A stretch of 64,000 nucleotides of DNA from Rhodoferax koreense (GTDB lineage Bacteria > Pseudomonadota > Gammaproteobacteria > Burkholderiales > Burkholderiaceae_C): assembly GCF_001955695.1 (NCBI RefSeq), contig NZ_CP019236.1, forward strand, positions 1,674,001-1,738,000, in the 5' to 3' direction. Each line of letters begins with the position of its first letter. Within the stretch, counting starts at the first letter, position 1. Under the pieces are notes generated by a model. It was not told the DNA's origin. It ran no database searches and worked only from the letters and a program-made list of their open reading frames with translations. Positions 27,291-47,593 of this stretch are shown here, piece after piece. Position numbers and translations under genes: made by a program.

Positions 27291-27292
27291 AA

Positions 27293-27309
27293 CGTGGAAA
27301 AAACGTAAC
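27293..27309 (+). promoter_or_regulatory. Putative phage late promoter motif, copy 1
   Basis: CGTGGAAAAAACGTAAC begins 40 bp before the ATG at 27333. AAATAG lies at 27323-27328, near the start codon. The same core occurs at 39779 and 47553 with the same distance to an ATG. It would drive the head genes. Confidence 0.6.
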
Positions 27310-27332
27310 GCTTGCCGCCGTGAAATAGCGGC

Positions 27333-27821
27333 ATGAGCATTTCCGCCGCCAACGTCGCGCCACACTTCGCCACCCGTCGCAGCATCACCGCTGCGCAGCT
27401 TGCCAAGTTGCAAGAGCCGGCCGTGATCTTCGAAGGCACACGCCGGGATGACGACGGCGAGGTGATGTTCCTCTATACCGTGGCCGGCTGGCTCGACGGA
27501 CAGAACATCTTCACCATGCAGGGCGGCGCCACGGTCGGCGGTGACGTGATCGTCATCCATGCGCCAGACCGCGAATCTGCCGATCTGATGGCCGGCATGG
27601 GTCTGCAGGACACCATCAACGCGCTGAACAGCGAGGACGACCAGATCGTCGATGCCATGGCCGCCCAGGCGCGCATCGCCGCGCTGCTCCCGATCGAGCG
27701 CCTGAACCTCGCCGCCAAGCCTGACGCCGAGAAGAACCCCGAATTCGAAGCCGATGCCGCGAAGCTGCGCATTCTGGCCGGTGACGACATTGTGATGGCC
27801 GCTGGCCGTGTAGCCCACTGA
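27333..27821 (+). CDS. Hypothetical head-region protein (162 aa)
   Basis: It reads MSISAANVAPHFATRRSITAAQLAKL, with a later VMFLYTVAGWLDGQNIFTMQGG and a Lys/Glu-rich end. Its position between terminase and portal is typical of small accessory head proteins. No domain is recognised. Confidence 0.75.
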   Translation: MSISAANVAPHFATRRSITAAQLAKLQEPAVIFEGTRRDDDGEVMFLYTVAGWLDGQNIFTMQGGATVGGDVIVIHAPDRESADLMAGMGLQDTINALNSEDDQIVDAMAAQARIAALLPIERLNLAAKPDAEKNPEFEADAAKLRILAGDDIVMAAGRVAH

Positions 27822-27894
27822 TTCTCTCGGGCGGCACGGCCCTTTGCTTCGTGTCCGGCTGGCAGGTCCGTAGTCTGCCGAAGAAGGAAACATC

Positions 27895-28485
27895 ATGTCC
27901 AACAAAGTTCTCTCCCTTGGCTCCGCAACGGCTGCCGCCGCGCTTCTCACCGTGTCAGGCGCCACCAACGCGACGCCGATCGTGATCACGTTGGGCGCTG
28001 GCCATGGCCTGAAGAACGACGACCGCATCGCGATCGCCGGCATCACAGGCAACACCAACGCGAACGGCACCTGGAGCTTGGCGAACGTGACGGCCACCAC
28101 CGCGGTGCTGCTCGGCTCGTCCGGCAATGGCGCCTATGGCGGCACGCCGCGCGTCGGCGTGGTGTTCAGCCACACCCCGCACATGAAGCAGCACAGCATG
28201 AATTGCGCCGCCTGGGGTAACGGCGTGGCCACCCTCGACATCGAGTCCTATGCCAGCTTGGCCGATTTCGCCGCCGGTTCGAACAACGACGGGGCCAGCG
28301 CTCCGGTCATGGCGCCTTCGATCGGTGTCGCATCGGCGGGCTCGAACTCCACGCCCGCCAAGAGCACCGTGACCCTCACCGCGGCGACATCCGGCGTCGA
28401 GTTCGAGATCAAGCCGAACATCATCATGCGCGCTGTGCTGACCGCGTACACGTCGGGCACCGTCGGCGTTTCGATCACCAGCTGA
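27895..28485 (+). CDS. Probable virion protein with FCCH-like domain (196 aa)
   Basis: After a hydrophobic start it reads TPIVITLGAGHGLKNDDRIAIAGITGNTNANGTWSLANV, the 'GHG-x-x-x-D-x-x-x-I-x-G-x-x-G' pattern of FCCH-like beta domains common in phage structural proteins. The remainder is Ser/Thr/Ala-rich beta sequence. The ATG follows AAGGAAA. The last base of its stop is shared with the portal start. Confidence 0.75.
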   Translation: MSNKVLSLGSATAAAALLTVSGATNATPIVITLGAGHGLKNDDRIAIAGITGNTNANGTWSLANVTATTAVLLGSSGNGAYGGTPRVGVVFSHTPHMKQHSMNCAAWGNGVATLDIESYASLADFAAGSNNDGASAPVMAPSIGVASAGSNSTPAKSTVTLTAATSGVEFEIKPNIIMRAVLTAYTSGTVGVSITS

Positions 28486-30638
28486 TGTTCGAACAACCCG
28501 CCCCCGCCGCCCCCGAGGCTGCCGACCAGTCGCCGGCGGAGCGGGTTGTCTCCGAAGAGGACAAGAAACTCGCGGCCGACTGGCTGAAGAAGATCGCCGC
28601 GGCCGAAAAGCGCGTTGAGAAGACTTTCAAGCAGTTCGACACCAACCGCAAGCTGCTGGCCGGCAAGAAGCCGAACACCGAGGGCAAGGAAACGGTCCGC
28701 GCGAACCTGCACTACGCCAACATGGCCGCGATGCTGCCGCAGATCTACGCCAAGGATCCGGAGTTCTCGGCGCAACCCGGCCCAGGTGTCAACCCGCAGC
28801 AGATCGATGCGACGAAGAAATTCGCCTCGACCTGCGAGTTCATGCTGAAGAAGTTCGTCGTCAAGGATGCGAACCTGAAGAAACAAGCCAAGAAGACCAT
28901 CCGCTCGGGCTTCGCCACGTCGGTGGGCTGGCTCAAGGCCTCTTGGCAGGAGAAGCGCGGCCAGGACCCGCTGATCCTGAACCAGATCAAGGACACCCAG
29001 GACAACATCGACCGCATCCAGATGCTGCTCGACCAGGCCAACGATCCCCAGGCCGGCAGCGACGAGGTGCTGAAGCTGGCCGAGCTCAAGCAGACCATGG
29101 AGGGGCTGCAGTCGCAGACTGAGATCGCCATTGCCAAGGGCATCGCGCTCGATTTCGTGATGAGCGAGGACATCCTGGTGGTGGATCCGTCCGTGCGCGC
29201 CGTGGCCGATTACCCACGGGCTGCCGCCATGGCGCACCGGGTGTGGATGACGCCCGACCAGTATCAGACCACCTTCGGTTACGCCTGCAAGAAGGGCAAG
29301 AGCTATTCCGAGCAGGAGGACGGCGGCGCCATGAAGGCCGGCAACGGTGGCGTGGACAATTCGGCCACGCTGCTGTGCGTGTGGGAAATCTGGTGTCAGG
29401 ACGACAACCGCCTGTATTACGTCTGCGATGGCGAGGAGGGCTTCTGCAAGCCGCCGTCGTCGGTTGACTGGACCGGCAAGCGCTGGTATCCGTTCTTCCT
29501 GCTGACGTTCAACGAGATAGACGGCAGTTTCTACCCGCTGTCGGATATCGAACTGACCGACAAGCTGGTGTCCGAGCACAACCAGAGCCGCGACGACTTC
29601 GTGCGCGACCGCCGCGAAGCACTGCCGGTCCTGATCGTGCGCAAGGGCGGATCACTCACGCCGGCTGACGTCGAGAACATCAAGAACCGCAAGGGTGGCG
29701 ACACCATCATGGTGGAAGGTGTTGGTGGTCAGCCCATCACGAACGACGTCTGGATGGGGCAGATGGCCCAGCTGAAAGGCGAGAACTACGACACCAGCGG
29801 CGCGCGCGGCGACATGGAGAAGATCCTGGGCGGCGGCGACACCTCCACCGGCTCGATCACCAAGGCCAAGACCGCCACGGAGGCGGAGATTCTCAGCCAG
29901 GGCCTGCGCAGCCGGGCCGGTGAGCGCCAGGACATCCTCGAGGACCTGCTGAACGAGCTCGGGCCGTACTGCCTGGAGATCATGCTGCGCAAGTTCAACG
30001 AGGCCGAGGTGAGGGCGCTGGCCGGTGAGGACGCGGTGTGGCCGCAAATGGGCATCGACCAGATCTTCAACCTGATCAGCGTGGAAGTGCGCGGTGGCTC
30101 GACCGGCAAGCCTGATCGCTTGCAGGAGCAGGACCGCTGGACCAAGCTGCTGCCCATCATCAACGAGGCCGTCAGCAAGGTGGCCGAGCTGCGCGAGAAG
30201 GGCCAGGACAACCTCGCCCAGGCCGTGATCGAGCTCACCCGGGAAACCATGCGCCGCTTCGACGAGCGCATCGACATCGAGCAGTTCTTGCCGAAGCAGG
30301 CCGAGGGCCAGGACGACCCGGCCGCCATGAAGCAGCAGCTGATCATGGGCAAGCAGCAACTCGATGCGCTTGAGGCCGAGTTGAAGGACGCCAACGAGAA
30401 GCTCGAAAAGGGCTTGGTCTCCGCCGGTGCTTCGATCGCCACGTCGGCCGACCCGATCCGCGGCGCGATCGCTTTCCAGGCCGTGATGGGCAACATCGCC
30501 CCGGGCGTGCTGGAGAGCCTCCCGCCGATGCCGGAGGCCCAGGAGCCGGGCGAGCACCCGACCAACGAACCCAGCGAGCCAGGAGAGCCTGGCGCGCAAC
30601 CCGTTCCGCAACCACAGACGGCCGAGATGCCGCAATGA
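28485..30638 (+). CDS. Portal protein, P22-like
   Basis: A 717-residue protein (P22 gp1 has 725). It has the long portal pattern: EDKKLAADWLKKIAAAEKRVEKTF, ANLHYANMAAMLPQIYAKDPEF, GFATSVGWLKASWQEK, and the crown-like helical C-terminus (KQQLIMGKQQLDALEAELKDANEKLEKG). The portal dodecamer is the DNA entry and exit gate at one capsid vertex. A Pro/Glu-rich tail ends the protein. The scaffold gene overlaps by ATGA. Confidence 0.92.
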   Translation: MFEQPAPAAPEAADQSPAERVVSEEDKKLAADWLKKIAAAEKRVEKTFKQFDTNRKLLAGKKPNTEGKETVRANLHYANMAAMLPQIYAKDPEFSAQPGPGVNPQQIDATKKFASTCEFMLKKFVVKDANLKKQAKKTIRSGFATSVGWLKASWQEKRGQDPLILNQIKDTQDNIDRIQMLLDQANDPQAGSDEVLKLAELKQTMEGLQSQTEIAIAKGIALDFVMSEDILVVDPSVRAVADYPRAAAMAHRVWMTPDQYQTTFGYACKKGKSYSEQEDGGAMKAGNGGVDNSATLLCVWEIWCQDDNRLYYVCDGEEGFCKPPSSVDWTGKRWYPFFLLTFNEIDGSFYPLSDIELTDKLVSEHNQSRDDFVRDRREALPVLIVRKGGSLTPADVENIKNRKGGDTIMVEGVGGQPITNDVWMGQMAQLKGENYDTSGARGDMEKILGGGDTSTGSITKAKTATEAEILSQGLRSRAGERQDILEDLLNELGPYCLEIMLRKFNEAEVRALAGEDAVWPQMGIDQIFNLISVEVRGGSTGKPDRLQEQDRWTKLLPIINEAVSKVAELREKGQDNLAQAVIELTRETMRRFDERIDIEQFLPKQAEGQDDPAAMKQQLIMGKQQLDALEAELKDANEKLEKGLVSAGASIATSADPIRGAIAFQAVMGNIAPGVLESLPPMPEAQEPGEHPTNEPSEPGEPGAQPVPQPQTAEMPQ

Positions 30639-31750
30639 CCATGAAAATCCGCCGATTCTTTTCTCGCCTGTACCGCAGCCCAGAACCCGGTGAAGACGGT
30701 GGTGGCTTCGAGCCCACCGAATCCGCCGACCTGACGCCGGTCGCCGGCGTCGAGACGCCCGAGGCAACGCCCGGCACCGAACTGACACCCAAGCCTGCGA
30801 CCATGCAGGAGGCCATGTTCCCGACGGTGACGACGCCCGAGGAAAAGGCCGCCGCCGACCAGCGCGCCCGCGATGCGCTCGGCCGTTTCGCCGGCAAGCC
30901 ACCGGTGGACCCGGCCGCGCCGCCCGTCGATCCGCTGAAGAAGCCGCCTGTCGACCCCAACGCCATGCCCGAAGGGCTGGCACCCAAGGCGCAGGAGCGC
31001 TTCCAGGCGCTGGTGAACACGAACAAGGAGCTGGCTGGCAAGCTGGAGCAGGCCACGCAGATCGCCGGCAGTCCTGAAGCCGTGCTGCCCATGCTGCAGA
31101 GTGCCCAGGCCATGCAGACGACCTTCCGCGACAACGGCGTGACCCGCGAGCAGTTCGAACAGGCCACCTCCGTGATCGGCCTGATCAACCGCGGCGACAT
31201 GGCCGGCGCGCAGAAGGTGCTGGAAGACCAGCTGCGCCAGATCTCGCTCGTCACCGGCAAGCCGATCGGCCAGGTGGATGCGCTGGCGTCTTTCCCCGAC
31301 CTGCGCGAGGCCGTGGACAACCTGCAGATCGACCAGGAGCGCGCGCTGGAGATCGCCCGAGCCCGCACCATCCAGCAGAACCAGCAGCAAGGCGCCCAGC
31401 GCCAGCAACAGCAAGAGCGCCAGCAGCAGGAAGTCCAGCAGGCAGTGCAACAGGGTCAGCTTGCCGTCGACCAGTTCTGCAAGTCCAAGATGACCAGCGA
31501 CCTCGATTACCTGCGCATCGAACCGCTGCTGCTGAAGGAAGTGCAGGGTGGCCTGCTCGTCGGCGTGCCGCCGAACCTGTGGCCGCGCATCGTGGAAAAA
31601 ACTTACAACCTCATCAAGCAAACTGCCGCATCGGCTCGAACAACGCAAAGCACCCAGGTGCTGCGTCCAACGGGCGGTGAGTCGCCTCGGCAGGCTCCAA
31701 AGTCCAGCTACGAGGCCATGTGGGGCGCACCAAAGCCCGCAGGCATGTAG
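30635..31750 (+). CDS. Scaffold protein
   Basis: A 371-residue, highly charged protein between portal and coat. It has a disordered, Pro-rich N-terminus (PPVDPAAPPVDPLKKPPVDP), long coiled coil (QNQQQGAQRQQQQERQQQEV, about residues 245-270) and a basic C-terminal region. This composition and position are those of P22 gp8-type scaffolds, which guide procapsid assembly and then leave. A CGTGGAAAAAAC copy (31591) lies inside its 3' part. Confidence 0.8.
   Translation: MTMKIRRFFSRLYRSPEPGEDGGGFEPTESADLTPVAGVETPEATPGTELTPKPATMQEAMFPTVTTPEEKAAADQRARDALGRFAGKPPVDPAAPPVDPLKKPPVDPNAMPEGLAPKAQERFQALVNTNKELAGKLEQATQIAGSPEAVLPMLQSAQAMQTTFRDNGVTREQFEQATSVIGLINRGDMAGAQKVLEDQLRQISLVTGKPIGQVDALASFPDLREAVDNLQIDQERALEIARARTIQQNQQQGAQRQQQQERQQQEVQQAVQQGQLAVDQFCKSKMTSDLDYLRIEPLLLKEVQGGLLVGVPPNLWPRIVEKTYNLIKQTAASARTTQSTQVLRPTGGESPRQAPKSSYEAMWGAPKPAGM
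31591..31602 (+). promoter_or_regulatory. CGTGGAAAAAAC motif, intragenic copy 2
   Basis: The 12-mer lies inside the scaffold gene, coding for the residues VEK. It is 292 bp before the coat gene start. It lacks the following GTA found in the intergenic copies, so it may be a weaker site or chance coding use. Confidence 0.35.
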
Positions 31751-31882: not shown

Positions 31883-32938
31883 ATGCCATTCACCGCACAA
31901 GAAATCAGCGACGCCGGCAAGATCGGCATCGACTTCTACCTGGCCAACAAGCCCGTCGACCAGATCGCCCTGGAACGCCCCCTGCTGAAGCTGCTGAAGA
32001 GCAAGCAGAAGAAGGCGCCCGGCGCGAAGCAGTACATCGTCGAGCAGCTCCGCAAGAGCTACTCGTCCAACTTCCAGTGGTACAACGGTTCGTCCATCGT
32101 GACGTACAACCGTCGCGTCACCAACGAGCAGGCGAACTACGCATGGCGCTCGTGCCACGACGGCCTGGCCCTCGATGAAGACCGCCTGGCGCAGAACGGC
32201 ATCATCATCAACGATGACCGCGAGCCCGGCAACTCGTCCGAAGCCGAAAAGATCCAGCTGACCAACCTGTTCGAAGAACAGTCCGAAGTGCTGCGCCTGG
32301 GTTTCCAGGAGCAGTTCAGCTACCAGCTGCACCTGGACGGCACGCAGTCGACCGACTCCATCGCGGGCCTGGATTCGCTGCTCTCGCTGACGCCGACGGC
32401 GGGCGTGGTCGGCGGCATCGACCGTTCCAGCGCGGCCAACGCCTACTGGCGCAACAACGTGGCCACCGGCCTGACGACCACGACCAGCACTGGCACGATC
32501 CTGAACAGCATGGAAGTGAACTACCGCCAGTGCATGCGCAACGGCGGCAAGCCCGACGCGCTGATCGCTGGCTCGCAGTTCATCGACGGCTACCGCAACT
32601 TCGTGCTGAACACTTTCGGCCGCATGGACTTCGGTCCGAGCAACCGCAAGCGCGTCGAAGGCGGCACCGAAGTGCTGACGTTCCAGGGCATCGAGATGGA
32701 ATGGTCGCCCGAGTTCCAGGAACTGGACAGCCGCTACGCCCCGGCCACCGCCTGGGAAAAGCGCTGCTACATGCTGAACTCCAGCACGATCACGCTGCGC
32801 CCCCTGCAAGGCCACGACATGATCACCCGCAAGCCGCCTCGTGCGTATGACCGCTACGAGTACTACTGGGGTCTCACCTGGAAAGGCGCGCTGACCATGA
32901 ACCGCGCGAACGCCAACGCCGTTCTCGCCCTGGCCTGA
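31883..32938 (+). CDS. Major capsid (coat) protein
   Basis: A 351-residue protein after the scaffold gene, with a strong AAGGATG site. Sequence: MPFTAQEISDAGKIGIDFYLANKPVDQIALERPLLKLL, VEQLRKSYSSNFQWYNGSS, QLHLDGTQSTDSIAGLDSLLS, and a C-terminal GLTWKGALTMNRANANAVLALA. It is presumably an HK97-fold coat. Codon use is strongly biased, as expected for the most abundant virion protein. A 132-bp leader precedes it and a terminator follows. Confidence 0.88.
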   Translation: MPFTAQEISDAGKIGIDFYLANKPVDQIALERPLLKLLKSKQKKAPGAKQYIVEQLRKSYSSNFQWYNGSSIVTYNRRVTNEQANYAWRSCHDGLALDEDRLAQNGIIINDDREPGNSSEAEKIQLTNLFEEQSEVLRLGFQEQFSYQLHLDGTQSTDSIAGLDSLLSLTPTAGVVGGIDRSSAANAYWRNNVATGLTTTTSTGTILNSMEVNYRQCMRNGGKPDALIAGSQFIDGYRNFVLNTFGRMDFGPSNRKRVEGGTEVLTFQGIEMEWSPEFQELDSRYAPATAWEKRCYMLNSSTITLRPLQGHDMITRKPPRAYDRYEYYWGLTWKGALTMNRANANAVLALA

Positions 32939-33009
32939 TTCACCGCGGGCCGCCTGACCGCTTCTCTGCAGTTGTCTCCAGTTCTGTCGCGGCGGTGGCA
33001 GGACCTTTC

Positions 33010-33035
33010 GGGCTGGGGCAACCCGGCCCTTTTTT
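33010..33035 (+). terminator. Terminator after the coat gene
   Basis: A GC-rich stem GGGCTGGG/CCCGGCCC with loop GCAA (33010-33029) runs into six Ts. It lies 72 bp after the coat stop and 22 bp before the next start. Partial termination here would give a surplus of coat mRNA. Confidence 0.85.
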
Positions 33036-33056
33036 GAATACAAAAAGGAAGATCAC

Positions 33057-33668
33057 ATGGCCACCGCACAATCGAGATACGCAGGTCCCAAGGGCGCCAG
33101 TCTGTCGCGCCGCATCCTCGTCAACGTCTTCCAGGGGCCGATGCTCAGCACGCCCGTGGTGATCTGGCAGCACGAGCTCCCCATCCTCGAAGAAATCCAC
33201 GGCGAGGGCAACATCAAGCCTGTCGACATCGAAAAGCTCGACGAAGGCTATTCGGCCAAGGCCTCGCCCGTCAACCTGCCGTACAACAAGACGCAGGAAG
33301 CCTTCTCCAAGCCGTCCACCAACCTGTGCCTCGGCTACGTGTTCTCCGGTGACGCCGGCATCGAATACCAGCGCCTGGCGGATGTTTACGGCAAGCACCG
33401 CGAGGACAACGTGTCCAACGTCGAGAAGGTCTACGGCCGCCTGCAATCCGGTCAATTCGCGTCGCTGGTGGGCGTGCCTCGCCTGGCCGATCTGCCCGAA
33501 GCTCAGCTGCGCGGCCTGATCCTGGCCTACGGCTACGCGCCGGACGTGCACAAGGAGGCCTCGGCAGAAGAAAAGCGCGAAGCCATCGAGAAGCGAAAAG
33601 AACTCGCGGCCATGCCGCTGGACGAGCTCGTGAAGCTCGCCGAATCCCTCGACGTCCAACTCGGCTAA
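33057..33668 (+). CDS. Hypothetical head-region protein (203 aa)
   Basis: The ATG follows AAAAAGGAAG. The N-terminal part (RRILVNVFQGPMLSTPVVIWQHELPILEEIHGEGNIKPVDIEKLDEGYSAK) is beta-rich. The C-terminal third is a charged helix (EASAEEKREAIEKRKELAAMPLDELVKLAESL). Such proteins downstream of coat genes often belong to head completion. I recognise no family. Confidence 0.75.
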   Translation: MATAQSRYAGPKGASLSRRILVNVFQGPMLSTPVVIWQHELPILEEIHGEGNIKPVDIEKLDEGYSAKASPVNLPYNKTQEAFSKPSTNLCLGYVFSGDAGIEYQRLADVYGKHREDNVSNVEKVYGRLQSGQFASLVGVPRLADLPEAQLRGLILAYGYAPDVHKEASAEEKREAIEKRKELAAMPLDELVKLAESLDVQLG

Positions 33669-33678
33669 GGAGCCCACC

Positions 33679-33987
33679 ATGCTTTTCTTGATCGTCAAAG
33701 ACCCGGCCACCCAGGTGCCGAAGGAACTCACCGTCGACGAGGCCCAGGCCTTCGAGGATCAGGGGCATGGCGTCCTAGTCGTCATCGGCGAGGGCGAGAC
33801 GCAACCGTTGAAGGCGTGGCGCGCGACCCAGGAACAGGTGGCCGCGGATCTCGCGCAGCCAGAGCCCGAAGAAGCAGGCCCGGCCGATGGCGATGCGCCC
33901 GAAGCCGTCACCGAAACCCCGCAGGAGCCTGCCGCAGTCGCAGCGCCCGCAAAGACCGCCGCCAAGAAGAAATCCACCTCGAAATAA
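33679..33987 (+). CDS. Hypothetical phage protein (102 aa)
   Basis: A compact N-terminal half (MLFLIVKDPATQVPKELTVDEAQAFEDQGHGVLVVIGEGE) is followed by an Ala/Pro/Glu-rich disordered tail with a basic end (KTAAKKKSTSK). A ribosome-binding site AAGGAG precedes it. The role is unknown. Confidence 0.7.
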   Translation: MLFLIVKDPATQVPKELTVDEAQAFEDQGHGVLVVIGEGETQPLKAWRATQEQVAADLAQPEPEEAGPADGDAPEAVTETPQEPAAVAAPAKTAAKKKSTSK

Positions 33988-33999
33988 CCGGAGCGCGGT

Positions 34000-35463: not shown

Positions 35464-35471
35464 GGACCGAC

Positions 35472-36584: not shown

Positions 36585-36601
36585 ACCCCCCTTTGCCGGG
36601 G
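36585..36601 (+). repeat. 17-bp direct repeat flanking moron, left copy
   Basis: ACCCCCCTTTGCCGGGG follows the stop of the glycosidase-like gene and recurs exactly at 39349-39365. The two copies bracket 2.75 kb that holds the O-acetyltransferase gene. Each can fold as a CCCC/GGGG hairpin, so a terminator role is the alternative. Confidence 0.7.
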
Positions 36602-36672
36602 CACCTCATCGCCGTTGGCGTCGTTTGATGCGCTCGGCGGTCGTCTTCTGGGAATGACCCGTTGCCGATCGA

Positions 36673-36906: not shown

Positions 36907-36928
36907 TGGCGCCGCTGACCTGAGTTGG

Positions 36929-37057: not shown

Positions 37058-37247
37058 TTGTTTGCCTTTCGAGCAAATGCAAATGTAACCTGTCGCACGA
37101 ATCAGGCAACTCCTGCGCAAAGCACTCCTTCGTCCGTCAGATTTCGGGTATGAAGCAGGGTGCATGAGGACTGTTCGCCGCAATGCAGAGTGAGCCAGGT
37201 GGGTCGGTCACGATGGTTATGCCAACCTGCTGATGGCTATGTCCTGG

Positions 37248-39248: not shown

Positions 39249-39348
39249 ACTAACTTTCGAGTGATCGTTAGCTTGTTATTACATCAGGTTTTTGTGCACT
39301 GCAACATGTAAGTAAGCACCTTTCGACCACGCGATCACGACAGATCCC

Positions 39349-39365
39349 ACCCCCCTTTGCCGGGG
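39349..39365 (+). repeat. 17-bp direct repeat flanking moron, right copy
   Basis: An exact second copy of the repeat at 36585-36601, located 54 bp before the next late gene. It lies upstream of the acetyltransferase promoter region (39249-39348). Confidence 0.7.
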
Positions 39366-39419
39366 GATAGGACCGCGCGAGGTGGCTGATACGATGTCGG
39401 CCTCTCAAGCGGGAACCGC

Positions 39420-39716
39420 ATGACAGCCTTTGATTTCAATAAGTGCTATCTCGACCAAGCCGAGATGGCAGTCTTCGACGCCATCGACGGCGGGGCCGCG
39501 TCTAAGTTCGGACGACAGGTTCGGGCTGTGGAGCTCTCAAATGCAGAGTACGACCGTCGATACAGGCGCATGGCGCAATCGCGGAACATGAAGGCGCCAC
39601 CCAGCCACCTTCGTATATTCCCGGGGTATTTGGTTGTGCGCCGGCTTGATTGTCCAGATCAGTACGAAACCTGGATGCCAGAAGGTGCCTTTAACGAGTG
39701 CTACCGCCCTAGTTAG
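39420..39716 (+). CDS. Hypothetical phage protein (98 aa)
   Basis: It reads MTAFDFNKCYLDQAEMAVFDAIDGGAASKFGRQVRAVELSNAEYDRRYRRM, and later GYLVVRRLDCPDQYETWMPEGAFNECY. The last part looks like a common small phage protein domain ('YETWMP...F'). It is alone between the moron and the tail genes. The function is unknown. Confidence 0.65.
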   Translation: MTAFDFNKCYLDQAEMAVFDAIDGGAASKFGRQVRAVELSNAEYDRRYRRMAQSRNMKAPPSHLRIFPGYLVVRRLDCPDQYETWMPEGAFNECYRPS

Positions 39717-39778
39717 AGCGGGCGCGATCCCCACCCACTGCCGGTGAGGATGGGGTTGAGGACCATTGCCCGTGCCAA

Positions 39779-39795
39779 CGTGGAAAAAAAGTAGC
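39779..39795 (+). promoter_or_regulatory. Putative phage late promoter motif, copy 3
   Basis: CGTGGAAAAAAAGTAGC starts exactly 40 bp before the ATG at 39819. A downstream block CGATAGTCGG lies at 39806-39815. It would drive the adaptor and ejection genes. Confidence 0.6.
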
Positions 39796-39818
39796 GCCAT
39801 CCGCCCGATAGTCGGCCG

Positions 39819-40481
39819 ATGGCCTACCGCACGCTCGAAACCCTTCGCACGACACTGCTAGCCCGGCTGGGGATGGCCGGCATGGGCGCCTCGGGCGGCG
39901 CGAACCTGGCGCTGATCGATTCCTTCCTAGCCAATGGCCAGGCCCAGTTGTACCGGATGCAGGACTGGAAACACCTGATCGCCTACGAGGACAAGACCCT
40001 CGGCGAGCAGCAAAACGAGATCGATTACCCCGATGCCTGCGCCCGGGATCAACGGGTATTGCGGGTGGAGACGAAGTATTCCGGTCAGTGGCTGCAGCTT
40101 CGCGAAGGCATCACCACCACGATGTGGTCCACCATGGAGACGCTTTCCTCCCCGGTGCGCTACGAGCGATATGCACAGATCCTGATCTACCCGCGCGCCA
40201 ACCAGCAATACACCATCCGCATCTGGTACGTGGCCGATCTGGGTCGATTCTCTGAAGCTGGCGACGCGTGCACCCTCGAGGATGAAATGGTGCTGCTGCA
40301 CGCCCTCGCCAACGCCAAGGCGCACTACCGGCAGCCGGACGCGCCGACCTACCAGGGGCAGCTGAACACGCTGCTGGCCTCGATCCGCGGCCAGTCCTTC
40401 GGCTCGAACGGCGTCTACCGGCGCGATACCATGCCGCCGCAGCTGCGCAAGCCCGCGGTGGTCGGTCGGGACGTGCCCTGA
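39819..40481 (+). CDS. Head-tail adaptor (P22 gp4-like position)
   Basis: A 220-residue helical protein: TLETLRTTLLARLGMAGMGASGGANLALIDSFLANGQAQLYRM, then KTLGEQQNEIDYPDACARDQRVLRVETKYSGQWL and a helical ring-like end. This is the adaptor fold order of podoviruses: DNA-exit ring subunits that extend the portal. The stop and the next start share a base. Confidence 0.75.
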   Translation: MAYRTLETLRTTLLARLGMAGMGASGGANLALIDSFLANGQAQLYRMQDWKHLIAYEDKTLGEQQNEIDYPDACARDQRVLRVETKYSGQWLQLREGITTTMWSTMETLSSPVRYERYAQILIYPRANQQYTIRIWYVADLGRFSEAGDACTLEDEMVLLHALANAKAHYRQPDAPTYQGQLNTLLASIRGQSFGSNGVYRRDTMPPQLRKPAVVGRDVP

Positions 40482-41908
40482 TGCCTGCCATCACGTACAA
40501 CGAGTTCTCCGGCGGCCTGGATCGCCGACTGTCGATCAACAGCCAGGATGCGAACAAGCTCTGGAGCCTGCGCAATGCCTACGTCACGCTCGGCAAGCGC
40601 CTGAACAAGCGTCCGGGGCTGCGCAAGGTCACTGCCGGCTTGGCCGGATCCTTCGGCCTCGAGTCGGTGAGCGGTGCGCTGAAGGTGTTTTGCGACGCCC
40701 CCTCTGGCTTTGCGCCGCCGGTTGTTGCAGGCCTGCCGATCGATCGCGTGAGCCTGAATGTCCCGCCTGCAGGTTCCACGCTGGACCGCATCTACTACGC
40801 CGACCTTTTCCAGGGGTTCATCTACGTGGTGGCGCGCTACGCCTCGGGCTACACCCGTCACCATTACGTCGACGGGGCCACCACTTACATCTCCGACGCC
40901 AACTGCCCGCACACCATCGGCGTGACCAAGGCCGCGAGCCGGATCTTCGCGCCTTCTGCGGAGAATGTGCGCTACTCGGCCGCCGGTGCCGCGCGCGATT
41001 GGACAACGGCCTCCGATGCCGGCTTCCTGCCCGCGGGCCTTCAGCAGGACACCAAGGGCCTGGTGAAAGCCTGCGGCACCTTCCAGGATAGCCTGGTGGT
41101 GTTCTTCGACGACAGCGCGCAGATCTGGGCCGTGGCCACCGACCCCGCGGCGAACGCCATCAGCAAGCGGCTGTACGGCATCGGCACGCAGGCGCCGCTC
41201 TCACTGGCGTCCTTCTTCAGCGACCTGGTGTTCCTGTCGCCCTTCGGTTTTCGCTCTATGACCGTGCAGGCCGTGAGCAATCGGATCGATGATTCCGATG
41301 TTGGTGTGCCGATCGATCCCCTGGTGAAGCCGGACATTGCCACCGTGGCCGCGACAGCCGATCCTGAAGAGATCATGGGCGTATGGATCGCCGAGTTCGG
41401 GCAGTACTGGGCGGTGATGGACATGGGGAGCTATTCCAAGGTGTGGGTGTACACCTTCTCGCGCAGCAGCAAGATCGCCTGCTGGTCCGAGTACATCTAC
41501 CCGATCGAGATCAAGGCCATCGCGACACTGGCCGGCAAGGTCTATCTGCGCAGCGTCGATGCCCTATACGAAGCCGACCCACTGAAGTTCACCGATGACG
41601 GGCAACTGATCGACATCGAAGTCCAGATGGCTTTTCAGGATGCCAAAAGCCCGGGCGTCAGCAAGCAGTTCTATGGGGCCGATTTCGTGACCGAAGGAAC
41701 ACCGTCGGTGTCCTACAAGTTCGATCCACGGGACACCGGCAAGGAATCGATTCCGATGGTGATTCCTGGCGACACGCGGCCGGGTGACATCCTGCCGGTG
41801 GAGATCATGGCGCCGGCGCTGGCCCCGGTGTTTCGGCACTCGAAGGACGAGGCCATGACGATTGACGCGCTCACGCTTTTTTACAACACCCTAGGCCTCA
41901 ACGGCTGA
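40481..41908 (+). CDS. Packaged-DNA stabilisation or tail protein (P22 gp10-like)
   Basis: 475 residues, against 472 for P22 gp10. It begins MPAITYNEFSGGLDRRLSINSQDANKLWSLRNAYVTLGKRLNKRPGL, a typical opening for this virion family, and continues as a beta-propeller-like repeat protein (FSDLVFLSPFGFRSMTV, GVWIAEFGQYWAVMDMG). It probably caps the adaptor and keeps DNA inside the head. Confidence 0.8.
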   Translation: MPAITYNEFSGGLDRRLSINSQDANKLWSLRNAYVTLGKRLNKRPGLRKVTAGLAGSFGLESVSGALKVFCDAPSGFAPPVVAGLPIDRVSLNVPPAGSTLDRIYYADLFQGFIYVVARYASGYTRHHYVDGATTYISDANCPHTIGVTKAASRIFAPSAENVRYSAAGAARDWTTASDAGFLPAGLQQDTKGLVKACGTFQDSLVVFFDDSAQIWAVATDPAANAISKRLYGIGTQAPLSLASFFSDLVFLSPFGFRSMTVQAVSNRIDDSDVGVPIDPLVKPDIATVAATADPEEIMGVWIAEFGQYWAVMDMGSYSKVWVYTFSRSSKIACWSEYIYPIEIKAIATLAGKVYLRSVDALYEADPLKFTDDGQLIDIEVQMAFQDAKSPGVSKQFYGADFVTEGTPSVSYKFDPRDTGKESIPMVIPGDTRPGDILPVEIMAPALAPVFRHSKDEAMTIDALTLFYNTLGLNG

Positions 41909-42375
41909 TGGATGAATTCCGCACGCTCACGCTCTCGGCCGCCGTCTACGTCGCGCACCATATGCGCGAGATGGACCGGGAATGCTTGCGCGCCGTCAGC
42001 ACGATCACCGACCCCGAAGTCTTCGGCCTGAACCGCTGGCAAACCGACGGCGCGGCCTGGGCCCTTTTCGACACGTTCAACGAACCGGTGGCGATCGGCG
42101 GCATCAGTCAGCACGTCCCCTGGTGCGGCACCGCGTGGATGGTGGCCACCGACGCCATGCAACCCGCATCGTGGAAAAAACTCATCCGGCACAGCCGTAA
42201 AGTCTTCCGCAACGCTGCGAAGTCCATCCCGCGCATCGAGGCGCAAGTCCTTGCGGGCTGGGCCGAGGCCGATGTGTTCGCGCGCAGCCTGAATTTCGAG
42301 CTTGAGGGCGTCCGCCGACGCGCCGGCAGAGACGGCCAGGACATTCTTACTTTCGTTTATCAGGGGTCGCCATGA
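41908..42375 (+). CDS. GNAT-like phage virion protein (155 aa)
   Basis: The shape is that of the GNAT-fold proteins found in podovirus tail modules (T7 gp13-type): MDEFRTLTLSAAVYVAHHMREMDRECLRAV, VAIGGISQHVPWCGTAWMVATDAM, AEADVFARSLNFELEGVRRR. Such proteins may have lost catalysis and serve in assembly. A CGTGGAAAAAAC copy (42170) lies in the gene. Confidence 0.65.
   Translation: MDEFRTLTLSAAVYVAHHMREMDRECLRAVSTITDPEVFGLNRWQTDGAAWALFDTFNEPVAIGGISQHVPWCGTAWMVATDAMQPASWKKLIRHSRKVFRNAAKSIPRIEAQVLAGWAEADVFARSLNFELEGVRRRAGRDGQDILTFVYQGSP
42170..42181 (+). promoter_or_regulatory. CGTGGAAAAAAC motif, intragenic copy 4
   Basis: The 12-mer lies in the GNAT-like gene (codons for SWKK), 202 bp before the next start. 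It lacks the GTA extension. Its function is uncertain, but it shares the strand and region of the other copies. Confidence 0.35.
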
Positions 42376-42689
42376 ACATCACGCAGATCACCGCCGAGGC
42401 CTTGACCGGCGGGCAGTCCACATCCATCGTCAACGCCGCCGGCACATCCGCGCAGTCGCCCGTGGTGGTGCGACCCGCAAACCATCCCGCCGGCGTGCCG
42501 GTGAAGGTGCTGGTGACCCCGGACAACACCTGCTTCGGTCGCAAGGGCACGAACCCGACCGCGCTGAACGACGGCACCGACCAGGTGTTCGTGGCGAACA
42601 CGCCTTATCGCATCGAGTTGATGGAAGGTGAGCGCATGGCGTTCATCTCCACCGCGGGTGGCACGGTCAAATGGACTCCGGGAGCTTGA
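42372..42689 (+). CDS. Hypothetical small virion protein (105 aa)
   Basis: A beta-rich sequence (VVRPANHPAGVPVKVLVTPDNTCFGRKGTN, RIELMEGERMAFISTAGGTVKWTP). It overlaps the preceding gene by ATGA. It could be a small tail or head-decoration protein. Confidence 0.7.
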   Translation: MNITQITAEALTGGQSTSIVNAAGTSAQSPVVVRPANHPAGVPVKVLVTPDNTCFGRKGTNPTALNDGTDQVFVANTPYRIELMEGERMAFISTAGGTVKWTPGA

Positions 42690-42690
42690 C

Positions 42691-43494
42691 ATGGGTGGCG
42701 GCGGCGGAAGCGACAACTACGAGCAGAAACAGGCCGAGACCGAAGCCAAGAAGCAGGCCGCGCGCGACGCACTGAACTACCAGTTCGGCGTTGGCAACGC
42801 GCCGACCACGACGACCTACACCGGGACGTCGCCCAACATGGCAGATTACTGGAGTGGCGAGAGCGTTGGTGATTCCGGTAGCGCCATGTTCGACCAGGCC
42901 GGCTACGACAAGGCGCTGGCCGCTTACAAAAATTCAGGTGTCACGACGGGTGGCGAGGCGAATCCCAATGCCGGGGCGCGCGATACGCTGTACCAGACGG
43001 TCCGCGACAACGCCTACAACGCCGGCAAACGCGGCCTCGACGAAACCAAGGACAGCGCCGGTCGTGCGCTCAAGTTCGAACTGTTCGCCAAGGGGCTGAA
43101 CGGCGGCAGCGAGGACATCAACCAGAACGCGCTGCTCGGCCGCACGTATTCGAACGGTCTGCTCGACCTGGGCGGCAAGGCCGATGCGGCGAAGGCCAAT
43201 TTCAAGGGCAACGATGAAACCACGCGCTTGAACCTGCTGCAGTCCATCGACGCCGGCATGGACCAGGGTTCCGCGTTGAGCTCGGCGACGGCCCAGCTGC
43301 AGAACAACAACGATCAAGCCGCGGCGGACGCCACCGGCACCACGCTCGGTGATCTGTTCGCGAACACCGCGCTGATCTCGAACCAGAGCCAGTACCGGCA
43401 GGGCAAACAGGCCGGAACGGAATGGTTCAACAACTACGCGCCGACAAGCGGCCGATCCACCAAAGCCTCCACGGGCATGATCACGGGGGTTTGA
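42691..43494 (+). CDS. Virion-associated protein (267 aa)
   Basis: The start is the ATG at 42691, one base after the previous stop. The N-terminus MGGGGGSDNYEQKQAETEAKKQAARDALNYQFGVG and the Gly/Asn/Ala-rich body resemble internal or tail-needle-region proteins of podoviruses. It is in the position of P22 gp26/gp14, but I cannot assign it. Confidence 0.7.
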   Translation: MGGGGGSDNYEQKQAETEAKKQAARDALNYQFGVGNAPTTTTYTGTSPNMADYWSGESVGDSGSAMFDQAGYDKALAAYKNSGVTTGGEANPNAGARDTLYQTVRDNAYNAGKRGLDETKDSAGRALKFELFAKGLNGGSEDINQNALLGRTYSNGLLDLGGKADAAKANFKGNDETTRLNLLQSIDAGMDQGSALSSATAQLQNNNDQAAADATGTTLGDLFANTALISNQSQYRQGKQAGTEWFNNYAPTSGRSTKASTGMITGV

Positions 43495-43495
43495 C

Positions 43496-44146
43496 ATGGG
43501 ACCAGAAGTTCTTCTTCCGTTGCTTCTCTCGGGCGGTGGCGCGCTGCTACAAAACCAGGCACAACAGGACCAGGCTGACGAAAAGCGCCAGATCCTGAAC
43601 CGCCAGATGGAGCGCGACAACGCAGCCACCGACAAGGCTACCGCCCTCGTGCAGACCGAGGGCCAGAACTACGGCATGGATCAGCGCAATCAGCAGCTCG
43701 CGGCCAACGAGGACAAGGCCTACCAACAAGCACAGACGGACATCGCCGGCGCCGGTGGCGCCCTGGTGGACACCGCGGGTGATGCAGGCAACGTCAGCGC
43801 TGATTTTCTCAAGGACAAGGCGAGCCGCACCATCGACGAGGGCACGCGCTTGACGTCGATCGCCCGCGAGGCCGCGAAGAACCGCTCGGCCGGCGGACTG
43901 ATGAACGACGACGCACTGCGCCGGGCCGGCCTGGCGGGCAACCTGCAGAACCTCTGGGGCACGACCAAAAACATGGATTCGGCCACGCGCAATGACGCCG
44001 ACAGCGTTCAGACGCCTGGTTATGGCTTGCTCGGCTCGATCGCCTCGGCCGCCGGCGGCGCCATGGCCGGCAAGGCTGGCGCTGGTGTGAGCTGGGACCC
44101 GGACGGCAGCTACGGCCTGAAATACGCACGAGGGATCGGACGGTAA
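43496..44146 (+). CDS. Internal ejection protein, P22 gp7-like (216 aa)
   Basis: A hydrophobic start (PEVLLPLLLSGGGALL) is followed by an Ala/Gln-rich coiled coil and a Gly/Ala-rich hydrophobic segment (SIASAAGGAMAGKAGAG). Its size and place before 454- and 628-aa proteins match the P22 gp7-gp20-gp16 order. Such proteins leave the head with the DNA and help form a channel across the envelope. Confidence 0.7.
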   Translation: MGPEVLLPLLLSGGGALLQNQAQQDQADEKRQILNRQMERDNAATDKATALVQTEGQNYGMDQRNQQLAANEDKAYQQAQTDIAGAGGALVDTAGDAGNVSADFLKDKASRTIDEGTRLTSIAREAAKNRSAGGLMNDDALRRAGLAGNLQNLWGTTKNMDSATRNDADSVQTPGYGLLGSIASAAGGAMAGKAGAGVSWDPDGSYGLKYARGIGR

Positions 44147-44148
44147 CC

Positions 44149-45513
44149 ATGCCCAACTACAACGTATCCGCATTTCGCGCCGCCACGCCAGGCCTGGGTG
44201 CCCTCGCCCAGGCGTTGGTGGGCGGCAATCAGGCTTTCGAGCAGGGCCGCGAGCAGGCCGTGACCTACCAGAGCAAGATCGCCAACGCTTTGGCCCAGCA
44301 GCGCGCGCACGACGCCACCGCGGACCTGGCCGGCGCCAAGGCGGCATCGGAGCGTGCCGAGCTCGAGGCGCGTTCCCCGACCGCGCTGCGCGACGCCGCG
44401 ATGCTGAATTCGGGCATTCCGTCTGACGAGGCGCCCACCGTCGACGCCTACTTGCAGACCGGCAAACTGGGCAGTCGGTACGACACCCCCGCGGTGGATG
44501 GCGTCGGCCCAACGATGCCCGCGCCAGACTGGGCGTCCAAGCTGGGCAACGTCGCGGCGATGATCGGCGGCAACCGAAATGCCATCGCGATCGGCGACAA
44601 AAGTAGCAAGAGTGTCGCCGAAGGTCGACAAATTGACCGGGCCTCCGCGCTGTCCGACGCGATCCTGGCGGGCACGCAGAACCGCAACGCCGTCGCCGGT
44701 GCTCAAGCCGCCATGGACGGCAAGCCGATGTACCATGCCGGCGGCGATGGCGGTGTGCTCGATCTGTTCGCCGGCAGCTTGAACACCGACAATCCGCTGG
44801 CCAAGTCCACCATCGGCCTGCGCGGCGCCCAGGCGGGTGCGCAAAATGCGTCGGCGGCGAACAGCTACGCCAGCGCTGGACAGCACAAGGCGGCGACGGA
44901 GAAGATCCGCACCGAAACCGGCCAGATCATCAATGCGCCCAAGGGCAAATTTGACGCAGCAAGCGGCATGCTCATTGACGAGCGGGCCGGCACCGCTCGC
45001 CCAATCATGGTCGACGGGAAGCCCATGGCCGGCCGCACCAAGGAGCTGACCGAGGGCCAGGCCAAGGACAACGGCTACGGCTCGCGCATGCAGGAGGCCG
45101 ACAGCATCCTGAATCAGCTGCAAGGCAAGTATTCGCCCGCTTCAGTGAACTCGCGCGTCGCGGCCGACAACAGCGTGGTGCCCGGCATCGGGATGGTCGC
45201 GAACTGGCTGCAGTCGGAAGAGGGCCAGCGCGCCGAGCAGGCGCAGCGCGACTTCATCAACGCGATCCTGCGTCGCGAGTCGGGCGCCGCGATCGCACCG
45301 AGCGAGTTCGCCAACGCCACGAAGCAATACTTCCCGCAGCCGAACGACAAGCCGGAAACCATCAAGCAGAAGGCGCGCAACCGCCAGATCGCGATCGAGG
45401 GTGTGTTCGGCTCCGTGCCGAAGGATCGCCGCGGCGTGCCCAGCCTGACCAGTGCGCAACCGGTGCCCGCGGCCCCAGGGCCGGCCGGCTTCACCTACCT
45501 CGGCAAGGAATAA
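44149..45513 (+). CDS. Internal ejection protein, P22 gp20-like (454 aa)
   Basis: An Ala-rich, helical protein (ALAQALVGGNQAFEQGREQAVTYQSKIANALAQQRAHDAT), with a C-terminal FINAILRRESGAAIAPSEFANATKQYFPQPNDKPETIKQKARNRQIAI block typical of injected phage proteins. 454 residues compare with 471 for gp20. Confidence 0.75.
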   Translation: MPNYNVSAFRAATPGLGALAQALVGGNQAFEQGREQAVTYQSKIANALAQQRAHDATADLAGAKAASERAELEARSPTALRDAAMLNSGIPSDEAPTVDAYLQTGKLGSRYDTPAVDGVGPTMPAPDWASKLGNVAAMIGGNRNAIAIGDKSSKSVAEGRQIDRASALSDAILAGTQNRNAVAGAQAAMDGKPMYHAGGDGGVLDLFAGSLNTDNPLAKSTIGLRGAQAGAQNASAANSYASAGQHKAATEKIRTETGQIINAPKGKFDAASGMLIDERAGTARPIMVDGKPMAGRTKELTEGQAKDNGYGSRMQEADSILNQLQGKYSPASVNSRVAADNSVVPGIGMVANWLQSEEGQRAEQAQRDFINAILRRESGAAIAPSEFANATKQYFPQPNDKPETIKQKARNRQIAIEGVFGSVPKDRRGVPSLTSAQPVPAAPGPAGFTYLGKE

Positions 45514-45516
45514 GCC

Positions 45517-47403
45517 ATGGCGAAATACCGTGTTCAAGGCCCAGATGGCGCAATTCACGTGTTCCAGGGCCCCGATGAAGCCACCCCGGAGCAAGTGACC
45601 GCTTTCGCGCAGCAGCACTTCGGCAAGGCCACGCCGGCGGCGCCCGCTGCAGCACCCGCACCCCAGGCCACGCCCGACGACCCGGGCGCGTTCATGTCGG
45701 CGCTGATCGGCGCCGGCCGCACCACCGACAACATCATCGACGGCATGAAGCAGCTGGGATTCAACCTGACCGGCGACAAGGCCGCGCTCGAGCAGTTGCG
45801 GGCAGACCATGAAGAAAAGACACGCCTCTACAAGCCGCTGCAGGAGCAGCACGCCATCACCACCGCGATCGGCGAGGCCTTGCCCTCGATGGTCGTTCCG
45901 GTCGGCGGCGCGGCGGGTGTGGCTGGCAACGTGGCCCGGCTGGCGGTCGCTGGTGCTGCCCCTGGCGCCTTGGAGTATGGGACAGCCGGCGAGCGCGCTG
46001 GACGTGCGGCAGGTGGTGCCGTTGCTGGTGTGGCCGGCGGTGCCGTGGTGCCGGCCGTGGCGCGCGCGGTTAGTAAGGTGGTGCCGGCCATCGGGCGCAC
46101 GGCCAAGGCCCTGACCGAGCCGCTGTATGAGGGCGGCCGGCAGGCCATCGCCGGGCGTACCCTGAATCGTGCGGCGGGCGAGGGCGCGGACGACGTGGTG
46201 CAGCGCCTTGCCGGTGCGGCCGGGCTGGTGCCCGGATCACTACCGACGGCGGCCCAGGTGGCCGAGAACGGTGGCATCGCGGCGCTGGAGCGCTCCGTCG
46301 CGGCGGCACAACCGGCCGAGTTCGCCCAGCGTGGCATGGAGCAGGCCGCGGCCCGCACCGGCGCGCTGCGGGACATGGCGGGCGATGCCACGTCACGAGC
46401 CGCGGCGGTCGATGCGCGCAAGGCAGCTACGAAGGGCTTGTATTCGCAGGCGGCCCAGGCGAACTACACGATGGACCCTCAACTGCAGCGCCTGCTGCAG
46501 ACACCGGCGATGCAGGAGGCCCTCGCCATGGCGAAGAAGCTGGCGGAGAACAACCAACGGCCGTTCACCTTCAACGTGGAGCCGCCGAGCCCATTTGGAG
46601 GCCTCGGGGTGAAGGGCCCAGCGGCATCGACGCAGATCACCGGCCAGGGGTTGCACGATCTGAAAATGGCTGTGGACACCATGCTGAAGGATCCGGCATC
46701 AGGCTATGCAGGTTCGGCGGGTGATTCGGTGAAGGCGCTGCGAGGGCAACTGTTGAACTGGATGGAGTCGCGCAATCCTGCGTACCGCCAGGCCCGCACC
46801 ACCTACGCCGATATGTCGAAGCCGATCGGGCAGATGGACATTGGTCAAGAACTGCTGACAAAACTGGAACCGGCATTGAACGATTACGGCGGCTTGGCGC
46901 GCGAGACCGGCAACAAGTTCGCCACCGCGTTGCGCAATGCAGACCAGACGGCGGTAAAGGCCACCAAGTTCAAAGGCTCGGGCATGGCCGACGTGATGAC
47001 GCCCGACCAGATGCGCACGCTGGAAGGCATCGCTGGCGACCTGGCGCGAAAGGCCAACGCGCAGGACCTGGGCCGCGGCGTGGGTTCGGACACCTTCCAG
47101 AAACTTGCCATGAGCAACATCGCAAACCAATCCGGTGCGCCGGGCGTGGTCGGTGGGGCGTTAAATTTTCCCGGCGTGTCGAAGGTGGCGAAGTTCCTCT
47201 ATGCGGGCCCCGAGGAGAAGATCCAGACCATCATCGCGCAGGCTCTGCTGGAGCCCAAGTCTGCCGCCAAACTGATGGGCGAGCAGATCCAGCGCGGTGC
47301 GCCGCAGTCAGCGACCGATGTGCTTTTTGCCAACCCCAAGCGTGCGACACAGGTTCTTGGCGGTCTGGCCGGCCTTTCCACTGGCAATTTTCTGGCGCAG
47401 TAG
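45517..47403 (+). CDS. Internal ejection protein, P22 gp16-like (628 aa)
   Basis: 628 residues, against 609 for gp16. The N-terminus (YRVQGPDGAIHVFQGPDEATPEQVTAFAQQHF) is a short domain common in phage ejection proteins. A hydrophobic Gly/Ala-rich region (about 125-190) could insert in membranes, and a long helical part follows. It probably enters the cell with the DNA. Its 3' end overlaps a small minus-strand ORF. Confidence 0.75.
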   Translation: MAKYRVQGPDGAIHVFQGPDEATPEQVTAFAQQHFGKATPAAPAAAPAPQATPDDPGAFMSALIGAGRTTDNIIDGMKQLGFNLTGDKAALEQLRADHEEKTRLYKPLQEQHAITTAIGEALPSMVVPVGGAAGVAGNVARLAVAGAAPGALEYGTAGERAGRAAGGAVAGVAGGAVVPAVARAVSKVVPAIGRTAKALTEPLYEGGRQAIAGRTLNRAAGEGADDVVQRLAGAAGLVPGSLPTAAQVAENGGIAALERSVAAAQPAEFAQRGMEQAAARTGALRDMAGDATSRAAAVDARKAATKGLYSQAAQANYTMDPQLQRLLQTPAMQEALAMAKKLAENNQRPFTFNVEPPSPFGGLGVKGPAASTQITGQGLHDLKMAVDTMLKDPASGYAGSAGDSVKALRGQLLNWMESRNPAYRQARTTYADMSKPIGQMDIGQELLTKLEPALNDYGGLARETGNKFATALRNADQTAVKATKFKGSGMADVMTPDQMRTLEGIAGDLARKANAQDLGRGVGSDTFQKLAMSNIANQSGAPGVVGGALNFPGVSKVAKFLYAGPEEKIQTIIAQALLEPKSAAKLMGEQIQRGAPQSATDVLFANPKRATQVLGGLAGLSTGNFLAQ

Positions 47404-47532
47404 CGCGAACTTCAAGCGGATGACGGGATAGACGTTTCGCTGCACCCAGCCGTCGAACATGTTCACGCCGAGCCAGAACAGGCAGACCATGGACATGGCG
47501 ATCGCGGTGCCGAGCAGTTTTTCGAAAGTCAT
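47308..47532 (-). CDS. Possible small membrane protein (74 aa), antisense overlap
   Basis: From the ATG at 47532: MTFEKLLGTAIAMSMVCLFWLGVNMFDGW, a clear TM helix, then a basic tail. It overlaps the 3' end of the gp16-like gene by 96 bp on the other strand and has a poor ribosome-binding site. It may be a real exclusion-type peptide or a chance frame. Confidence 0.4.
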   Translation of the reverse strand: MTFEKLLGTAIAMSMVCLFWLGVNMFDGWVQRNVYPVIRLKFALLRQKIASGKAGQTAKNLCRTLGVGKKHIGR

Positions 47533-47552
47533 GTCCGGATGGTAAGCGGATT

Positions 47553-47569
47553 CGTGGAAAAAACGTAGG
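47553..47569 (+). promoter_or_regulatory. Putative phage late promoter motif, copy 5
   Basis: CGTGGAAAAAACGTAGG starts 41 bp before the ATG at 47594. AAATAC lies at 47583-47588, at the same offset as AAATAG in copy 1. It would drive the fibre and lysis genes. Confidence 0.6.
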
Positions 47570-47593
47570 CGTGAGAAATGCCAAATACGTGGC

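Follow-up and report, generated by a model that had tools for sequence, protein, structure and literature searches.

Two-box elements before late genes of a Rhodoferax koreense prophage and its relatives as candidate phage-specific late promoters

RESULTS AND DISCUSSION

Five copies of an 11-mer in the late region of a prophage

The window analyzed here, a stretch of 64,000 nucleotides (nt) of the Rhodoferax koreense genome (NZ_CP019236.1, positions 1,674,001 to 1,738,000), contains a prophage bounded by 26-bp direct repeats of the 3' end of ssrA, the transfer-messenger RNA (tmRNA) gene, at 5995-6020 and 51436-51461, which are likely its attachment sites. The late region of this prophage carries the 11-mer CGTGGAAAAAA at 27293 (P1), 31591 (P2), 39779, 42170 (P3), and 47553 (P4), always on the plus strand. 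An earlier note on this DNA, made from the letters alone, had reported these five copies and suggested that they form a phage-specific late promoter. Scans of the window and of the entire 5.9-Mb genome on both strands confirmed the number of copies, their strand, and their confinement to the late region (27293-47563): there is no further copy in the window, even with up to one mismatch allowed, and none elsewhere in the genome. The claim that chance would give well below one copy also held, with 0.005 copies expected per prophage strand from base composition and no exact copy in 100 dinucleotide shuffles of the window, which had a mean of 0.83 copies with one mismatch. The intergenic copies 27293, 39779, and 47553 precede the ATGs at 27333, 39819, and 47594 by 40, 40, and 41 bp, and 27293 and 47553 share AAATA at motif positions 31-35, all of which agrees with the earlier note. 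The other two copies are intragenic, that at 31591 lying within the open reading frame (ORF) 30635-31750 and encoding VEKT and that at 42170 lying within ORF 41908-42375 and encoding SWKK. An exact-pattern scan of IMG/VR with CGTGGAAAAAAMGTAR returned 61 stretches, of which three belong to the same phage (contig 2751185765) and the other 58 have one match apiece. A programmed frameshift at the A-run was set aside by inspection, three copies being intergenic and the frames of the others reading GTG GAA AAA ACT and TGG AAA AAA CTC, not A AAA AAC.

Anatomy of the two-box element

CGTGGAAAAAA is the core of the upstream half of a two-box element, which consists of an upstream box (consensus AATC-N2-GGAAAAAAC) at a -35-like place, a 17-nt spacer, the hexamer NNCAAT at a -10-like place, and, usually 6 to 7 nt further on, an ATG. 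A position matrix for this element was built from 19 sites of relatives (designated below by L or G and a number), with none from the window. Phages that were the same or near-identical (L095, L101, L103, and L108) and those that were distant or had an unclear homologue start (L094, L118, L122, L128, and L129) were left out before the site list was drawn up. The sites were aligned on the last A of the A-run, after which NNCAAT follows at 17 nt in nearly all of them; a shift was applied to L088 to obtain the 17-nt spacer, and L107 is one base out of register. Applied to the window, the relatives-only matrix placed 27303 first (37.4) and 47563 second (27.8), followed by 42180 (11.8), 31601 (10.6), and a minus-strand background site (10.6). 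The copies at 27293 and 47553 are therefore strongly confirmed. The copy at 42170 would draw its support from the codon evidence given below, and those at 31591 and 39779, the weakest cases among the five, from identity to the full 11-mer, from where they lie, and from a fair hexamer; in the copy at 39779, which has seven A, the register was counted from the sixth.

Conservation at the same junctions in relatives

Close relatives of the prophage were found in Roseateles depolymerans (L005, TerL identity of 73%), in Herminiimonas contaminans (L006, 72%), in a genome of the host's family (G282), and in IMG/VR contigs. The late gene order is shared. Seven more distant relatives (L007-L013) have TerL identities of 39-53%. 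Named phages are remote: none of 50,697 phage records is a close relative, the head protein having four matches (best identity, 26.5%), and the portal has three matches. In the relatives, the genes equivalent to 27333 and 47594 are preceded by phage-specific versions of the element. Herminiimonas, for example, has CGGGAAAAAAGTT and ATGGAAAATATTT, whereas the same version stands at two places in Roseateles (GCGAAAAC), G282 (CGCGGGGAAAACGCC), and L110 (GATCAAAAAAG). The earlier note had regarded absence of the motif from related phages of the same gene order as evidence against a promoter, and this criterion needs to be applied with caution: none of the nine relatives compared first (L005-L013) has the exact 11-mer, but the two closest of them, L005 and L006, have a diverged version at the same junctions, and the more distant ones that were examined (L007-L011) are without the element.

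A small helix-turn-helix (HTH) protein is encoded at 24914-25279, and a scan for this protein gave nine phages outside the matrix set. In all nine, the best site of the locus on either strand lies directly after terL, with scores of 31.1, 27.5, 35.0, 37.9, 45.2, 31.4, 37.1, 41.0, and, in L202, 7.7. Two of the nine are closely related to phages of the matrix set (L192 to G282, 95%, and L193 to L107, 90%), and L128 and L176, in which no terL was found, and L118, with the terL end only, were not counted. In 10 distant relatives with terL and without the HTH protein in the locus (L007-L011, L093, L113, L122, L167, and L170), the score after terL was -3.2 to -20.6, at ranks 17-945. Searching the full records or genomes of these 10 with an HTH profile gave no match but a weak one (4e-4, L170), and the virus records among them may be fragments. 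L102 and L103 do carry the HTH protein, which is cut off in their first loci. Of the core-matrix sites above 9 in 26 sequences, 61 are on the late strand and 12 on the opposite one.

The copy at 39779 stands directly after an inserted stretch, which separates it from the upstream late genes, and no element is present at this junction in four relatives that lack the insertion. This placement would suit a promoter serving the genes beyond the inserted, partly opposite-strand cassette. Within the gene that precedes the head protein gene, there are sites in the window, L109, L182, and L110, and weaker ones were found before or at the start of the gene at 30635 in L099, L111, L117, L127, L192, and G282. 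Near the end of the HTH gene, before the terminase genes, core-matrix sites are present in L097 (L097:2712, 20.7) and L109 (L109:2693, 14.2); the window has no core-matrix site above 9 there. A short minus-strand frame (47400-47532, MTFEKLLGTAIAMSMVCLFWLGV...) begins just upstream of P4, and similar-looking short, membrane-like frames occupy this place in G400, G399, G282, L102, and L110 and not clearly in L109.

Each phage has its own spelling of the box

For seven phages, the window's included, P1, P3, and P4 were all available for comparison. The boxes of P1 and P4 agree within phages at 88 of 112 positions, against a permuted mean of 64.4 (1 of 5040 permutations), and the agreement is also high between P1 and P3 (4 of 5040) and between P3 and P4 (8 of 5040). 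The spacers are without such agreement (531, 1045, and 1362 of 5040 for P1-P4, P1-P3, and P3-P4), and the hexamers gave 816, 48, and 1020 of 5040. That the box agrees and the spacer does not argues against recent copying of the whole region and for one reader per phage. The private spelling also hints that the protein that reads the switch is made by the phage.

A promoter-like site held within a virion gene

The P3 place carries a site above 9 in each of the 14 loci that span the internal virion protein gene. Because the encoded motif S-W-K/R-K is itself conserved, codons were tested at protein-alignment columns in 18 loci (L101, near kin of G282, was omitted, and its Lys codon is also AAA). 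The fourth codon is Lys in 16 of the 18 loci and is AAA in all 16, although AAA makes up 8-36% of the Lys codons in those sequences (product, 10^-13.1). The third codon is Arg in 10 loci, with nine CGA and one AGA, which together account for 2-19% of Arg codons (product, 10^-12.1); both products ignore relatedness, the identity to the nearest query being 44-69% unless it is the query itself. In L096 and L112, the fourth codon encodes Asn, and other residues occupy those columns in seven more distant loci. As far as these codons tell, P3 is held by unusual codon choice in the virion gene of the relatives.

Start codons and predicted leaderless mRNAs

An ATG lies within 14 nt of the hexamer in 29 of 31 intergenic sites, and 26 of these 29 have it at a distance of 6 or 7 nt. 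A Shine-Dalgarno 4-mer accompanies the element at two of the 29 starts (L111 and L117), and 27 are without one. In the controls, in which near-identical loci are included as they are in these counts, the 4-mer was found in 23/23 cases for the gene at 27895, 14/14 for the head protein, 13/13 for the gene at 33057, 9/13 for that at 43496, and 6/18 for the portal. Transcription usually starts about 7 nt after the -10 hexamer. With a start about 7 nt past the hexamer and a gap of 6 to 7 nt, the first nucleotide of the RNA would be the A of the ATG, and since these start codons mostly lack a Shine-Dalgarno sequence, leaderless mRNAs of virion genes are likely from most of the intergenic copies. At three P4 sites, those of L102, G282, and Roseateles, the homologous start is further off. 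The stretch up to it contains AGGAG or GAGG in L102 and G282, and the predicted start in Roseateles falls on the ATG of a short frame, which terminates on the start of the gene itself.

Candidate readers of the element

Among the hexamers of 22 phages, position 6 is T in all 22, positions 4 and 5 are A in 21 each, position 3 is C in 17, and position 2 is A in just one. Sigma-70, with the consensus hexamers TTGACA and TATAAT, depends strongly on A at position 2 of the second hexamer, and the sigma-54 consensus is GG-N10-GC. A scan of 33000-48200 with the sigma-70 consensus gave no site at 39779, 42170, or 47553 (27293 and 31591 lie outside this stretch), and by eye, the sigma-54 consensus is not found at P1, the sole copy read, where GG at 27296-27297 is followed after 10 nt by AC. 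These results uphold the earlier statement that the element resembles neither a sigma-70 nor, at P1, a sigma-54 promoter. Sigma region 2 (PF04542) has 12 matches in the genome and none inside the prophage, although a very diverged sigma factor could escape the search.

Among the frames within 8 kb upstream of terL in 12 sequences, the HTH protein alone was found in all 12, and the next proteins among the frames compared were present in seven and five. The 12 sequences represent 10 distinct phages, L089 being identical to L198 and L200 being nearly identical to L201. The window HTH protein falls below the cutoff of every Pfam and NCBIfam model, and its relatives match generic helix-turn-helix models and PHROGs 16553 and 17493 (best, 1.5e-7); that of L109 has no match among the named phage records. 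On its distribution, the HTH protein is the best candidate for the reader. A CII-like regulator before the replication gene (21550-21852; PHROG 725, 2.5e-20, with Pfam Sigma70_r4 barely above the cutoff) was also considered for this role and was rejected, as it has no match in the 11 relative loci searched. A PDB profile search was uninformative, its best matches being designed helical repeats.

Comparison with known phage promoters

The hallmark of late promoters, a shared element that heads late blocks and keeps its position in relatives, is found here. T4 middle promoters keep the sigma-70 -10 hexamer, whereas the hexamer of the present element is without A at position 2 in 21 of 22 phages. 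The likeness to these MotA/AsiA promoters would lie in a box at the -35 place, which in T4 is a box for a phage protein, according to an excerpt of PMC7403470. In phage 7-11 (phiEco32-like; PMC8948821), the late element is bipartite (GTAAtg-16-aCTA), with starts 6-9 bp from the element; a phage related to 7-11 has another consensus at similar genome positions, and 7-11 encodes its own sigma factor. The present element is similarly a bipartite, phage-specific element before late genes whose spelling differs among relatives, but its sequence is different, its start is predicted at the ATG, and the search for sigma region 2 gave no match within the prophage. As in the C-activated late promoters of Mu, described in sections of PMC4461284, there are several putative promoters per phage with nonconsensus -10 and -35 regions, served in Mu by one activator; C binds upstream of the -35 region according to those sections, whereas the conserved box here is at the -35 place itself. 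Portions of the AR9 paper (PMC5312081) report that phage transcripts are often leaderless and that 13 AR9 late promoters lie inside ORFs, and these two traits are therefore not new in themselves. AR9 differs in having its own multisubunit polymerase, the motif AACA-6N-TA/G, and leaders of 26-491 nt, as given in the same portions. In the open-licence text of PubMed Central, covered by titles and abstract openings, there was no report of this element or phage group. The putative late promoters described here would be a new family of a known kind, the phage-specific late promoters.

Proposed mechanism and alternative explanations

The copies very probably mark phage-specific late promoters, with predicted leaderless starts and a host polymerase that is most likely redirected by a phage protein. 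We infer promoter activity, start sites, leaderless translation, and the identity of the reader from features that are present in the DNA itself, that is, the two-box anatomy, its conserved position, the agreement of boxes, the codon constraint at P3, and the lack of Shine-Dalgarno sequences. The upstream box at the -35 place, the 17-nt spacer, and the NNCAAT-like hexamer at the -10 place would together form the late promoter, and transcription would start about 7 nt past the hexamer, at the A of the ATG in most intergenic cases. Host RNA polymerase would most likely carry out transcription, redirected by a phage-encoded protein that would bind the upstream box in place of the normal -35 contact, with the HTH protein as the putative binder. 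A more specific version, in which an undescribed family of small HTH proteins replaces the -35 contact, with a drifting phage-private code, an AUG start, leaderless first genes, and one promoter within a virion gene, is tentative and somewhat doubtful. Of the earlier proposal, the phage-specific late promoter part was strengthened by the same junctions in relatives, the -35-like and -10-like boxes, the 17-nt spacer, and the distance of mostly 6-7 nt to the ATG. The part that invoked a phage factor draws indirectly on within-phage box agreement, the non-sigma-70 hexamer, and the co-occurring HTH gene, and it may be regarded as plausible to that extent.

Several observations weigh against this interpretation. 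The alignment of the matrix sites on the A-run was manual, and with the relatives-only matrix, the copies at 31591 (10.6) and 39779 (4.3, at 39789) do not rise above background. Counterparts of 31591 within the same gene were found in three other loci only (L109, L182, and L110). All carriers come from one lineage, so the co-occurrence of the element and the HTH protein is explicable by a single gain or loss, and the gene at 27333 has a distribution nearly equal to that of the HTH protein. A Mantel test of box against HTH similarity was not specific (r, 0.18, compared with 0.16 for box and TerL and 0.28 for spacer and HTH), and its set also includes the near-kin pairs L107 and L193 and G282 and L192. 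A search of the genome for a single-subunit RNA polymerase gave no match, but the control was equally silent, and absence is thus not established.

A host alternative sigma factor that reads the promoters without a phage factor would suit the -35-like and -10-like boxes with their 17-nt spacer, as well as the sigma region 2 matches, all of which lie in the genome outside the prophage. The boxes, however, are uniform within a phage and different between phages, which a shared host factor does not require (the hosts' factors were not compared), and the host genome has no copy of the 11-mer outside the prophage; we regard this explanation as quite unlikely. The copies might instead be directional repressor sites similar to the stoperators of mycobacteriophage L5, at which an immunity repressor would silence the late genes in the lysogen. 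According to an excerpt of PMC9283540, L5 stoperators are asymmetric sites that follow the direction of transcription, some of them in short intergenic spaces, which is a likeness to the copies described here, and PHROG 16553, matched weakly by the HTH relatives, is annotated as a repressor. The second box at a fixed spacing and the fixed ATG distance speak against stoperators, which repress and for which that excerpt describes neither feature, and the 11-mer is restricted to the late region, whereas the excerpt places L5 sites genome-wide; this makes repressor sites very unlikely. Chance repeats or a coding coincidence are hardly credible for the set as a whole. The intragenic copies do encode VEKT and SWKK, and allowing one mismatch lifts the chance expectation to 0.83, but there is no other copy in 5.9 Mb, and relatives have orthologous sites and the P3 codon bias. 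Chance is contradicted for P1, P3, and P4 by the relatives' sites, the box agreement, and the codons, and coincidence is possible for 31591 alone.

If the promoter interpretation is right, it provides a predicted transcription map for a lineage of Burkholderiales phages (Roseateles and Herminiimonas) and IMG/VR contigs, and it points to a single candidate gene for the late switch. Since every phage spells the element in its own way at several places, the phages offer matched sets of promoters and proteins in which the joint change of specificity and targets can be studied. The leaderless arrangement, if true, would free translation of the first gene of a block from Shine-Dalgarno pairing. The AUG start as a class rule, the promoter apparently held by codons in a virion gene, and the possible HTH reader would add further interest.

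Neighboring genes and features

The features of the late region are listed in Table 1.

Table 1. Putative promoter elements and genes of the prophage late region (window coordinates)
Feature	Position	Strand	Remarks
P1	27290..27333	+	Box 27290-27305; hexamer TGAAAT 27321-27326; predicted +1 at ATG 27333
P2	31588..31631	+	11-mer 31591; hexamer CAAACT 31619-31624; 282 nt before major head gene
Copy after inserted cassette	39776..39819	+	Box 39776-39791; hexamer GATAGT 39807-39812; predicted +1 at ATG 39819
P3	42167..42210	+	11-mer 42170; hexamer TAAAGT 42198-42203
P4	47550..47594	+	Box 47550-47565; hexamer CCAAAT 47581-47586; predicted +1 at ATG 47594
Small helix-turn-helix protein, 121 aa, candidate box reader	24914..25279	+	Kept in all 12 upstream regions compared
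Terminase	25276-27290		Late region
First gene after P1, function not assigned	27333..27821	+	No Shine-Dalgarno 4-mer before ATG; no Pfam match
Portal	28485 (start)		Late region
Major head protein, downstream of P2, has Shine-Dalgarno	31883..32938	+	PHROG 9953
Inserted stretch	34000..39716		Genes 34000, 35472, 36615, 37248-39248 (minus), 39420
Adaptor gene after copy 39779	39819..40481	+	SU10 adaptor, Pfam PF24175
Internal virion protein, contains P3	41908..42375	+	PHROG 308
First gene after P4	47594..48130	+	Homologues at same junction in relatives
Endolysin	49234 (start)		Late region

None of the five inserted genes (34000, 35472, 36615, 37248, and 39420) has a match in any of the four relatives compared. 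Downstream of the endolysin gene, the product of 50042-50566 belongs to PHROG 1544 (function unassigned); it has no match beyond Herminiimonas among the relatives searched and shares 74% identity with a Herminiimonas prophage protein. An integrase-like frame on the minus strand (6146-7420) was named by reading alone. The minus-strand gene at 37248-39248, which lies in the late region, matches PHROG 6705, an O-antigen acetylase (1.9e-136).

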